A DNA stretch of 64,000 nt from Microtetraspora sp. NBRC 16547 (lineage in GTDB: Bacteria; Actinomycetota; Actinomycetes; Streptosporangiales; Streptosporangiaceae): the NCBI RefSeq assembly GCF_030268965.1, contig NZ_BSSE01000019.1:1-64000 (forward strand), read 5' to 3'. This document shows, piece after piece, positions 1-64,000 of the stretch. Both the position numbers and the translations under genes were made by a program. Under the pieces are notes generated by a model that saw only the letters and a list, made by a program, of their open reading frames with translations, did not search any database and was not told the origin of the DNA. Position 1 is the first letter of the stretch, and each line of letters starts with the position of its first letter.

Positions 1-117
1 TACGGCGGTTATAGCGGTAGGGAAACACCCGGTTACATTCCGAACCCGGAAGTTAAGCCTTCCAGCGCCGATGGTACTGCACTGGGGACGGTGTGGGAGA
101 GTAGGACGCCGCCGGAC
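1..117 (+). rRNA. rrf: 5S ribosomal RNA
   Basis: The stretch carries the conserved 5S core, including the segment around 40-60 with CCGAACCCGGAAG and the 3' segment GGGAGAGTAGGACGCCGCC. The ends form helix I: bases 3-8 pair exactly with 109-114. The first one or two bases may lie outside the window. It is the last gene of an rRNA operon that enters from the left. The length is right for a full actinobacterial 5S RNA. Confidence 0.95.
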
Positions 118-28511: not shown

Positions 28512-28584
28512 GGGGCTATAGCGCAGCTGGTAGCGCACCTCCATGGCATGGAGGGGGTCTGGGGTTCGAATCCCCATAGCTCCA
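28512..28584 (+). tRNA. tRNA-Ala (GGC), copy 1
   Basis: All four arms fold. The acceptor GGGGCTA pairs with TAGCTCC (one G-U), the anticodon stem CCTCC/GGAGG encloses ATGGCAT (anticodon GGC), and GGTTCGAATCC forms the T arm. The discriminator is A; CCA is not encoded (CCC follows). Confidence 0.97.
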
Positions 28585-28745
28585 CCCGATCACTCACGGT
28601 CGAGGGCGGCCGGTAAACCCTTCGGCGCCCTGTGCCGCCAGGTCGGTTCGATCAGTCGCGAAAGCCGCTCAAGCCGCTCGGGCGCGATGTTTGGGGGCCG
28701 GAGGCGAAATCGGGGGCGGCCGCAGGTGGCGATAGCCTACTGGCC

Positions 28746-35675: not shown

Positions 35676-35748
35676 GGGGCTATAGCGCAGCTGGTAGCGC
35701 ACCTCCATGGCATGGAGGGGGTCTGGGGTTCGAGTCCCCATAGCTCCA
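35676..35748 (+). tRNA. tRNA-Ala (GGC), copy 2
   Basis: It differs from copy 1 only at one T-loop base (CGAG for CGAA after GGTT). It has the same anticodon loop ATGGCAT and the same discriminator A, and CCA is not encoded (CTC follows). Confidence 0.97.
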
Positions 35749-35759
35749 CTCATTTGATC

Positions 35760-38454: not shown

Positions 38455-38527
38455 GGGGCTATAGCGCAGCTGGTAGCGCACCTCCATGGCATGGAGGGGG
38501 TCTGGGGTTCGAGTCCCCATAGCTCCA
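38455..38527 (+). tRNA. tRNA-Ala (GGC), copy 3
   Basis: Its 73 nt are identical to copy 2. Unlike the other two copies it is followed by an encoded CCA (38528-38530). A perfect terminator hairpin lies just downstream. Confidence 0.97.
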
Positions 38528-38535
38528 CCAGAGAA

Positions 38536-61412: not shown

Positions 61413-61421
61413 TCGATCGTC
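61397..61421. terminator. bidirectional hairpin across convergent gene ends
   Basis: GACGATCGAT (61397-61406) pairs with ATCGATCGTC (61412-61421). The stem includes the last codons and stop of the acetyltransferase gene and reaches the stop of the opposite gene, so one hairpin may end both transcripts. Confidence 0.6.
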
Positions 61422-63349
61422 TAGCCGACCGGGCGGATCTGCTTGAAGACCGTGTTGATGTCGGGCAGCAGCTCGTCCTTCTGCTTGGGCACCTGCATGT
61501 AGACGATGGTCGGAAGGTCGCCGCCGGCGTTCAGCGCCGCGACGACCGCCGTCGTCTGCTCGGAACCGTTCTTCACCGTGAAGGCGATGAGCTCGCCGGT
61601 CATGCCGCCCCGCGACACCCGCTGCTGGGCCGCCTTGGAGACCTTGTTGTCCTTGTCGAAGAGCTTCTGCCGCGTCTGGAACATCACCGAGTTGATCACG
61701 GGCCCGAGGTCGTCCTCGGAGGTGTACTTCCCGGCCAGGGACTGCGCCAGCGGGCCGGTCATCACCTGGGCGAACTGTAGCTTGCCCTCCGGGGTCGTCC
61801 CGGCCGGGACGTACTGCCGGGTGGCGAAGCCGTACGTGTCCTGGATGTGCTGGGTGCGCTGGTCGAGCTGCCAGGGGCCGCCGAGCTTGGGTAGCGTGAT
61901 CTGCCCGGCCGAGTCGGTGACCGTACCGGAGACGGGGGACGGCGTGCCCTTGTACGTCGGCAGGGGCAGCGACTGCGGCTTGGCCGCGACCGGCGCCGAC
62001 TGCTTGGCGGACGGCTTCGCGGACGGCTTGGTATCGGCTGGCGCGTCGCCGGAGCTCAGCGGGCCGGAGACGAACGCCCACACCAGCGCGGCGATCAGCG
62101 CGACGACCACCGATCCGATCAGCGCGAACAGCCAGATCGGCCGCCCGCCCTCGTCGTCGTAGTAGTCGTCGGGCCCGCGCTCACCCTCGGGGCCGAAGAC
62201 GGTGTTCCACAGCTCCTCCTGGCGGTGCGCCGGAGGCGTCTTGGGGCCGCTGATCTGGCCGGCCGTGACGAACGGGCGGTACGGGTCGGCCGGGTCCATG
62301 CCCTCCTGCGGCCGGTCGAACGGCCCGGCCGCTCCGGGGAAGCCGGACGGGGCAGCCGTGGGGGAGCCGGGAGGAGCGGACGGAGCAGGTGCGGCGGGGG
62401 CGGCCTGCGGGTACGCGGCCGGCGCGGGCATCGACATCGTGGCCTCGGCCGCCAGGCCGCCGTACGGCGGACGGTCGCCGCTCAGCGGGTCCATCCGCGG
62501 CGCGGTGCCCTGGCCCAGGGGGTCCTGGCTCAAGGGGTCGGACCGCAGCGGGTCGTGCCGCATCGGATCCATGTGGTCCTGTCGCAGGGGGTCCGGGCGC
62601 ACGCCCAGCGGATCCTCACGCAGCGGGTCGGGACGCAGCGGATCGGGACGGAGAGGATCGGGACGCATGGGGTCGTGCCGGAGCCCATCGGGGCGCGTGA
62701 CATCCGGACGGGCGGAATCCGCGCGTACGGGGTCGGGCCACATGGGCTCCGGTCGCATGGGGTCGGACCGCAGCGGGCCGGACAGCGGGTCGGGGCGCGT
62801 GGGATCCGGGCGCGTGCCCAGCGGGTCGGCGCCGTACGACGCCGGGGGCTGCGGCAGGAAGGGGTCGGCGCCGGTCGCGTGCTGCGAGGACTGCGGCATG
62901 CCGTACGGGTCGTCCGAGCGCGTGTCGCCGTACGAGGCCAGGGGCGGCGGCAGGAACGCGCTCCGCTCCTCCCTGCCGTAGGGCTGGGCCGACGACGGGT
63001 GCTGCCCGGCGCGGTGTGGTGACTGGTCCGCGCCCGGGTCGGCCGGGTCGAAGGACCGGGCCGACGGCGTGAAAGAAGAGGCCGCGGGGACCTCGGGCCA
63101 GGCCGGTGAAACCTCCGGCCACGCCGGGGTCCGCTGCGGCTCGCTGTGCTCCGAGGGCATGGTACCTCCCGAGATCATGCCCGAATTGGGTGCGCCTGGC
63201 ATGATCTCATGCGAACCTGGGGGCGCCGCACGGAAACCAGAGAATGCTCCGCGGAATTGCTCGCCCGTCGGGTCGGTCGGCGGGTCCTGCATCGGAAGGT
63301 CCGACTGCGGGAAATCCGGGCCCGATCCCGGCTGGACTGAGTTCACCAC
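61421..63349 (-). CDS. membrane-anchored protein with DPLR repeats (paralogue of 41794-42780)
   Basis: The product is 642 residues. The first 400 are cytoplasmic and low-complexity, with a run of five-residue repeats of the type RPDPL (coded in about 62520-62840 by a 15-bp unit). A single helix (about 425-447: PIWLFALIGSVVVALI) is followed by a Lys/Ala/Ser/Pro linker and an outer domain of about 150 residues. That domain shares FATRQ and the ending DINTVFKQIR with the protein at 41794-42780. GTG 63349 is the longest start. No known domain was recognised. Confidence 0.8.
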   Translation of the reverse strand: MVNSVQPGSGPDFPQSDLPMQDPPTDPTGEQFRGAFSGFRAAPPGSHEIMPGAPNSGMISGGTMPSEHSEPQRTPAWPEVSPAWPEVPAASSFTPSARSFDPADPGADQSPHRAGQHPSSAQPYGREERSAFLPPPLASYGDTRSDDPYGMPQSSQHATGADPFLPQPPASYGADPLGTRPDPTRPDPLSGPLRSDPMRPEPMWPDPVRADSARPDVTRPDGLRHDPMRPDPLRPDPLRPDPLREDPLGVRPDPLRQDHMDPMRHDPLRSDPLSQDPLGQGTAPRMDPLSGDRPPYGGLAAEATMSMPAPAAYPQAAPAAPAPSAPPGSPTAAPSGFPGAAGPFDRPQEGMDPADPYRPFVTAGQISGPKTPPAHRQEELWNTVFGPEGERGPDDYYDDEGGRPIWLFALIGSVVVALIAALVWAFVSGPLSSGDAPADTKPSAKPSAKQSAPVAAKPQSLPLPTYKGTPSPVSGTVTDSAGQITLPKLGGPWQLDQRTQHIQDTYGFATRQYVPAGTTPEGKLQFAQVMTGPLAQSLAGKYTSEDDLGPVINSVMFQTRQKLFDKDNKVSKAAQQRVSRGGMTGELIAFTVKNGSEQTTAVVAALNAGGDLPTIVYMQVPKQKDELLPDINTVFKQIRPVG

Positions 63350-63482
63350 AGCGAAGAGAGTAAACTAAAGGGACAAAGAGGTCACAGCGGAGCTATCACC
63401 ATCGCGTATCGCTCGTCTAGAGGCGAACGCCGTCCGGTAGATCCTGAAGCGACGCTCTTGCCGTCTGCGCTACCCTTGGTAT

Positions 63483-63527
63483 ATGCGCGCCGCGACCCTG
63501 CTTACTTGGCCGCATCGTCAGGGCTGA
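63483..63527 (+). CDS. leuS leader peptide
   Basis: ATG 63483 opens [14 protein letters not shown] and stops at TGA 63525-63527. Codons 6 and 7 are CTG CTT, two adjacent Leu codons, as expected for an attenuation leader that senses charged tRNA-Leu. TACCCT (63471-63476) lies 6 nt before the ATG, so the leader is probably translated from a leaderless RNA end. A terminator-like hairpin stands between it and leuS. Confidence 0.55.
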
Positions 63528-63567
63528 TTCCCCTCGATGCGGCTGCCCCTCGCGCGAAGCGGGGGGC
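63510..63567 (+). terminator. leuS attenuator hairpins
   Basis: A perfect 8-bp stem (63510-63517 with 63535-63542) begins in the codons after the Leu pair. The next hairpin (63545-63553 with 63559-63567, one G-U) is GC-rich and followed by TTTGTTGT, as in a terminator. Ribosome position on the leader could choose between structures. Confidence 0.5.
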
Positions 63568-63627
63568 TTTGTTGTGAGCGGGCGCCCTCACCGTGCCTTT
63601 AAGGAAAGCATCCCTTCGGGAGTTGAC

Positions 63628-64000
63628 GTGGACGAGCTGGTGTACGACCCGCAGGCGCTGCAGGCCAAGTGGCTGCGGCGCTGGGAGGAGCTGAACCCCT
63701 TCGCGGCGGTGGAGGACGCGGCGGACACCCGGCCGCGCAGGTACATGCTCGACATGTTCGCCTACCCGTCGGGCGACCTCCACATGGGGCACGGCGAGGT
63801 GTTCGCCATCGGCGACGTGATCGCGCGCTACTGGTTCCAGAAGGGCTACAACGTCCTGCACCCCGTCGGCTGGGACTCCTTCGGCCTGCCCGCGGAGAAC
63901 GCCGCGATCAAGCGTGACGCGCACCCCGCCGAGTGGACCTACGCCAACATCGAGACCCAGGCGAACTCGTTCAAGCGTTACGCGGTCTCCTTCGACTGGT
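63628..64000 (+). CDS. leuS: leucyl-tRNA synthetase, N-terminal part
   Basis: LeuS charges tRNA-Leu. The visible 124 residues include [20 protein letters not shown] with the HIGH motif as HMGH (residues 52-55), and [14 protein letters not shown], which is specific for LeuRS. The gene runs out of the window. GTG 63628 is preceded by CGGGAG. Upstream lie a leader peptide and an attenuator-like hairpin. Confidence 0.95.

Follow-up and report, generated by a model that had tools for sequence, protein, structure and literature searches.

Gene and leader organization at the leuS locus

The stretch of DNA that was analyzed (64,000 nt, hereafter the window) ends within leuS, and a compact leader stands directly ahead of this gene. 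The features of the leader and the gene start are as follows.

63471..63476, + strand: -10 element TACCCT (TA...T), read from the sequence, 6 nt ahead of the leader ATG
63483..63527, + strand: leader frame of 14 codons plus TGA, read from the sequence and with homologous frames in relatives; probably leaderless
63498..63503, + strand: control codons CTG CTT (Leu-Leu), read from the sequence
63501..63503, + strand: CTT, its first base 8 nt ahead of the GCCGC of arm 1 (63509); putative stalling codon
63508..63517, + strand: first stem, arm 1 GGCCGCATCG, from folding and helix covariation
63535..63544, + strand: first stem, arm 2 CGATGCGGCT, from folding and helix covariation
63545..63567, + strand: intrinsic terminator hairpin, abutting arm 2 directly, from folding, with 5 of 7 pairs changed on both sides
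63568..63575, + strand: U-rich tract TTTGTTGT, read from the sequence
63618..63622, + strand: GGGAG, read from the sequence, putative leuS ribosome-binding site
63628..64000, + strand: leuS, first 124 codons, running off the window; partial match to TIGR00396 leuS_bact

The leader frame reads ATG CGC GCC GCG ACC CTG CTT ACT TGG CCG CAT CGT CAG GGC TGA. A preliminary description of this DNA had reported a -10 element, a 14-codon frame with CTG CTT, a stem, and a terminator with a T-rich tail before leuS, and all of these were read in the sequence. The stem itself was thus recovered, while its reported length of 8 bp was too short, as it extends to 9-10 bp (10 bp with one G-U pair). The leader fold was better than 200 of 200 shuffles (z -2.98). 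Short ATG or GTG frames placed 5-7 nt after TA...T were encountered four times in the whole window on both strands, and adjacent Leu codons were found in only one of them, the leuS leader frame, which has a terminator after it; the terminator was looked for behind this frame alone among the four.

The first 124 residues of leuS matched TIGR00396 leuS_bact with an E value of 1.5e-43 (partial protein), and the closest named relative among the matches listed was Microtetraspora glauca, with 99% over the leuS fragment. Judging from relatives, leuS probably starts at GTG 63628; its frame is already open from GTG 63574. All 60 relatives' genomes that were examined yielded a leuS match; some matched only through the longer LeuS type or another synthetase.

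Several other features of the window were noted. Beside leuS lies a divergent frame of 642 aa (61421-63349, - strand), whose N-terminal half contains degenerate DPLRPDPMR-like repeats, with 15/30-bp DNA repeats at 62606-62696 and a hydrophobic segment after the repeat half. Three tRNA-Ala(GGC) calls were made on one strand within about 10 kb (28512-28586, 35676-35749, and 38455-38530), the last two with equal Rfam scores; so many close copies of one tRNA seem odd. A 5S rRNA occupies the start of the window (1-117; Rfam).

Control codon, spacing, and stem covariation

Leaders were parsed at 111 loci, which yielded 104 distinct sequences. An in-frame Leu pair and the TA...T box served as detection criteria, and their presence in the set is in part a result of selection; codon identity and the 8-nt distance were not used. 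All 104 distinct leaders contained a run of 2-4 Leu codons (the Leu pair being a search criterion), which ended in CTT in 90 cases and in CTC in 14. Among 102 leaders (the set without L012 and L042), the codon with its first base 8 nt before the stem GCC was CTT 92 times, CTC 10 times, and never CTG. CTT is a rare codon in the leuS coding parts from 80 loci, where it accounted for 18 of 3935 Leu codons (0.46%) and CTG for 3461. By codon-anticodon rules, CTC and CTT are expected to be read by the same tRNA. An isoacceptor explanation of the CTT preference was rejected on this ground, and a reading of CTT as a slow codon is likelier because CTC should share its tRNA. Control codons of the regulated amino acid that adjoin the first stem are expected of a classical attenuator, and they are present here.

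Of the 104 distinct leaders, 94 have 6 nt between the -10 element and the start codon and 10 have 7 nt, in searches that allowed 3-8 or 5-7 nt. In the preliminary description, the start codon coincides with the presumed transcription start, and every distinct leader has a spacing that agrees with this. From the same spacing, we infer a leaderless frame with transcription starting at ATG 63483. For comparison, a mean spacing of 6.3 nt between the -10 element and the transcription start is given for Streptomyces lividans (PMC8079986).

A covariance model (R1) was built from such leaders. It matched the window leader at 73.2 bits (E 6.7e-18), although an identical sequence (L002) is in the R1 seed. 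Among the 30 best R1 matches, chosen without an open reading frame test, the control codon was in frame with the start in 29, and in the 30th (L214) a second start is in frame. This frame check counts as supporting evidence only, since leaders of this kind went into R1 and nearly the same peptide is encoded by 20 of the 30.

Covariation was assessed in an alignment of 60 distinct leaders (A1), in which 95.5% of 1080 cells were paired and 12 of 18 pairs had changed on both sides. Cells with a double change numbered 108, compared to 24.2 for shuffled alignments (none of 500 reached 108) and 2-16 in slid controls. The foot of the first stem, GCCGC/GCGGC, had the identical pair in 101, 102, 102, 97, and 101 of 102 leaders, an invariance partly built in through the arm-1 anchor motif GC[CT][AG]C, which 102 of the 104 leaders carry. 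The pairs above the foot were mostly variable in these 102 leaders. This block alignment, which also underlies the consensus folds below, omits L042 and L048, as do the simulated-stall folds, and loops of more than 16 nt were shortened in it. The gap between the first stem and the terminator was 0-2 nt in all 104 distinct leaders, where up to 5 nt was allowed. The layout of a leader-peptide attenuator, as first proposed for this DNA, is thus upheld by conserved Leu codons and by two conserved stems that covary.

Conservation and loss in Streptosporangiaceae

The Streptosporangiaceae sample comprised the best 80 of 562 leuS loci, restricted to named loci that carry a Streptosporangiaceae genus or title. 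In 62 of these 80 loci, leuS is preceded by the leader frame together with the stem and the terminator, a count made after reading by eye, with L055 left out and L121 (GTG start) taken in. R1, which was seeded from some of them, scored the identical 62 loci at 60-97 bits. Conservation of the short frame with its Leu codons, which the preliminary description had proposed as a check, is seen in this family.

The 18 loci without a working leader (L053-L066, L068, L072, L073, and L083) belong to Microbispora (11), Planotetraspora (5), and Sphaerimonospora (2). All 18 retain the TGCGCTA box of the -10 element, and an ATG within 24 nt of the start of this box was gone in 17. The first stem is altered in these loci. 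No downstream 8-nt stretch with more than 5 T was found in any of the 18, and a CCCC..GGGG hairpin remnant persists in 11, which indicates that the loss is not total. R1 gave 17-31 bits in 6 of the 18 and no match at E <= 0.1 in the other 12. Because more distant families have the leader unit, its absence from the three genera is read as a loss, and by sequence comparison they appear to be natural losses of the attenuator with the promoter-like box kept.

In Microbispora hainanensis (L054), the leader ATG and CTG CTG survive about 140 nt before leuS, and the frame has no stop in the stretch that was read; it is open for 182 codons and extends across the leuS start region, resembling a fusion of leader and leuS. 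In 8 further relatives' loci (L021, L023-L027, L030, and L031), no leader was found by script, and the CGCTAACCT box was kept.

Distribution of the leader among actinobacteria

Outside the named set, the upstream regions examined came from many families of the class, and a leader was found by script in 12 of 17 extra relatives. Among the remaining five, L035 (MRSDRLVLT) looked similar by eye, L038 ends at a contig edge, and no leader was seen in L041, L043, and L046. A scan of 83 more upstream regions returned 30 leaders, with two matches (L161 and L164) left out as their frames lie 450 nt upstream. R1 matched 38 of 92 loci (40 of 94 with two genomes counted twice). Across the class, an R1 match at E <= 0.01 was obtained in 205 of 296 genomes, a total that includes other genes, and 112 listed matches in 111 genomes exceeded 52 bits; the gene downstream of R1 matches was checked for fetched loci only.

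The leader was encountered before the short LeuS type and also before a longer LeuS type of about 40% identity (for example L196 and L198-L200), and in one genome it stands ahead of each type (L034 and L212). These sequence comparisons show that the leuS leader is shared widely among actinobacteria. In another genome, two leuS genes of different type lie in tandem (G037 contig 124; L206 and L211), with a Leu leader MQAVQLLLSGPR before the first.

Related leaders before cimA, ilvB, and leuC

Of the lower-scoring places matched by R1, 20 were read, and they lie before 10 cimA-like genes, 4 leuS, 4 ilvB-like genes, and 1 leuC, with 1 running off the contig. These genes were named by eye from their N-termini, except that L249 was assigned through overlap with a cimA match, and one ilvB and one leuC were named by NCBIfam (partial proteins).

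One such leader lies in the same genome, outside the window (G000 C41:474-582; L244), where MFYGLLIIGRRAG with CTG CTC ATT ATC is followed by a stem and a terminator. The gene after it is the citramalate synthase gene cimA (TIGR00977, E 1e-173). In 35 of 50 cimA upstream regions (30 + 20 loci), a leader with an Ile-containing Ile/Leu/Val run was found together with a GC-rich stem, which a terminator follows at a distance of 0-2 nt; 14 of the 50 had no leader and 1 had no stem. The distance from the last run codon to the stem was 8 nt in 19 of the 35 (range 4-11), a looser rule than that of leuS. No papers on a cimA leader were among the matches listed, as judged by title and the start of the abstract.

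Ile/Leu/Val leaders before acetolactate synthase genes (ilvB-like) were likewise matched by R1 (L255, L257, L258, and L261). A MRTVLLLLSGRDETSF leader without a clear U tract precedes leuC (L267).

Search for an antiterminator

The preliminary description had inferred that the two hairpins exclude other structures. Mutual exclusion between the two is not supported, as folds of the free leader contain the first stem alongside the terminator. In a classical attenuator, an antiterminator would compete with the terminator, and no conserved or stall-dependent one was found by folding tests; pseudoknots, kinetics, and proteins lie outside the scope of these tests. Pairing of arm 2 with the 5' arm or loop of the terminator (2:3 pairing) reached -5.10 kcal/mol in leaders' own combinations and -5.04 in swapped ones (sd 0.11), with 58 of 200 swaps as good, in a test that is blind to invariant pairing. 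Among 48 diverse leaders, the same 2:3 pairing gave -4.34 for own, -4.33 for swapped, and -4.51 for shuffled loops; the diverse set of 46 or 48 leaders includes Streptosporangiaceae-like rows (L002 or L012, L133, and L134).

When the ribosome was masked, the RNAalifold consensus retained the upper first stem and the terminator only, with no alternative. Under a simulated stall, terminator pairing probability had a mean of 0.969 and a lowest value of 0.744 across 102 leaders. In the free leader, the mean was 0.931, and the value was below 0.5 in 4 of the 102. The extent to which the terminator 5' arm was held by upstream sequence during a simulated stall was 0.249 for own and 0.259 for swapped combinations.

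Three candidate pairings and likenesses were rejected. Arm 2 with the apical segment of the terminator looked good by eye as an antiterminator in several leaders and failed against swaps and shuffles. In a few free folds (L107, L114, L120, and L127), the Leu codons pair with the 3' arm of the terminator; reasoning by hand gave CTC as the better partner there, at odds with the preference for CTT. A likeness of arm 1 to tRNA-Leu was also considered, and it fails in Streptosporangiaceae with a differing upper stem.

Comparison with known systems

The leuS attenuator and its leaderless start are already known in kind from Streptomyces. In 2005, Seliverstov et al. (PMC1262725) predicted 'classical attenuators' upstream of the leuS genes in S. 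avermitilis and S. coelicolor, and the 2021 reannotation of S. lividans describes leuL2 with the peptide MRAVRLLLSEPR, leaderless by RNA-seq and with a hairpin and then a U stretch downstream (PMC8079986). No further papers on a leuS attenuator were among the matches listed, as judged by title and the start of the abstract; leuS is mentioned four times in PMC3896937 and not at all in PMC13236596.

A Leu-rich short frame upstream of leuS and a hairpin with a U stretch before the gene are present in the window, as expected of a leuL2-type attenuator. The leader resembles leuL2 in that leuS is preceded by a Leu-rich peptide, a hairpin, and a terminator with a U-rich tract; a leaderless start, which the -10 spacing suggests here, was mapped by its 5' end in S. 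lividans (PMC8079986). The leuL2 peptide of S. lividans is the same as the peptide of locus L200 in our set. An antiterminator, which PMC1262725 states for leuS of Streptomyces, was not detected here. The window leader also differs from leuL2 in belonging to another family, in preceding the shorter LeuS type, and in having two Leu codons rather than three.

Work by Canestrari in 2020 reportedly presented mycobacterial leaderless short open reading frames encoding polycysteine as amino-acid-responsive attenuators. Like the leader proposed here, these would be leaderless attenuators; they differ from it in using cysteine and in serving other operons. In Corynebacterium glutamicum ilvBNC (PMC11857589), the leader start is one nt from the transcript start and a three-hairpin region precedes this branched-chain amino acid operon, which is similar to the present case; however, the antiterminator there overlaps the terminator and is supported by mutations, whereas none was found here. 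The LEU element of actinobacterial leuA likewise has a leader peptide with Leu codons upstream of a leucine gene, yet it is described as a pseudoknot in which the Leu codons pair with a Shine-Dalgarno box (PMC1262725), and S. lividans leuL1 lacks a typical terminator (PMC8079986). Unlike both of these, the leuS leader has a terminator.

Proposed mechanism and alternative explanations

Taking the sequence evidence together, the leuS leader is very probably a transcription attenuator that senses Leu-tRNA through a ribosome on a leaderless peptide and is homologous to Streptomyces leuL2. Transcription would start at the A of the leader ATG, and a 70S ribosome would load on the 5' end and translate the short peptide with its Leu run; in the normal state, the transcript would end at the terminator. 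A shortage of charged tRNA-Leu would make the ribosome stall with CTT in its A site. The leading edge of a ribosome lies about 13 nt downstream of the A-site codon (footprint). The edge of the stalled ribosome would then reach 5 nt into arm 1 and open the five nearly invariant foot pairs GCCGC/GCGGC. Once the base of this stem, which adjoins the terminator, is open, RNA polymerase may read through into leuS.

The alternatives differ in what they would require of the stems and of the frame. In a textbook attenuator, the stalled ribosome would free arm 2 to pair with the 5' arm of the terminator, as Seliverstov et al. (PMC1262725) state for leuS in S. avermitilis and S. coelicolor and as modelled, with mutational support for the overlapping antiterminator and terminator, for C. 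glutamicum ilvBNC (PMC11857589). In single leaders, L200 and L209 among them, 6-7 pairs of this kind are possible; however, this pairing was no better than in swapped or shuffled sequences and was absent from the masked consensus folds, the terminator kept a pairing probability of at least 0.744 under the simulated stall in 102 of 102 leaders, and the gap of 0-2 nt between arm 2 and the terminator in all 104 leaves no spacer. We regard such a 2:3 antiterminator as possible and on the unlikely side. An attenuator plan for the whole class that needs no antiterminator is still more doubtful and is offered as speculation: a leaderless ribosome on a rare U-ending codon at a set spacing (CTT, 8 nt ahead of the stem) would open the nearly invariant foot of a stem stacked directly on the terminator, termination would be prevented by the break in the stack or by a factor on the freed GCGGC, and the plan would recur ahead of leuS with Leu codons, ahead of cimA with Ile codons, and ahead of ilvB with Ile/Leu/Val codons.

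Readings without a sensing ribosome fare considerably worse. That the terminator forms at any ribosome position in the folding models would suit a constitutive terminator with an incidental short frame and a leuS gene not regulated by Leu, which is nevertheless improbable given the conservation at the level of codons, the fixed distance from codon to stem, the keeping of the frame, and the fact that, in one group of genera, the start codon, the first stem, and the U tract have decayed. An overlapping promoter (TTGCCG at 63458-63463 and TATATG at 63480-63485, spaced by 17) would place the start near 63492, inside the frame, and give no leaderless peptide. The same two elements occur in the four nearest relatives (L049-L052), and the TTGCCG -35 part occurs in L003-L005 as well. 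TTGCCG was, however, not seen at this place in the leaders of other genera examined, and TA...T stands 6-7 nt before the start in all 104 leaders (partly a search criterion); this second promoter, not seen beyond the nearest relatives, was rejected as very improbable. The position of the leader RNA before an aminoacyl-tRNA synthetase gene could also suggest a T-box-like element or another Rfam riboswitch instead of a translated leader. This is the least credible explanation, as the start codon stands at the expected transcription start with the control codon in frame, and the Rfam search gave E 3.7 as its best match in 62000-64000 (permissive) and none near the leader at the gathering threshold.

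For the preferred ribosome-dependent attenuator, these comparisons extend a device known from a few Streptomyces to many actinobacterial families. They also give it a strict, testable geometry, consisting of a rare CTT, a distance of 8 nt, five nearly invariant pairs, and a stem that lies directly against the terminator. Should the lack of an antiterminator be genuine, attenuation would work here outside the textbook scheme, and the supply of Leu or Ile may be tunable in antibiotic producers through short leaders.
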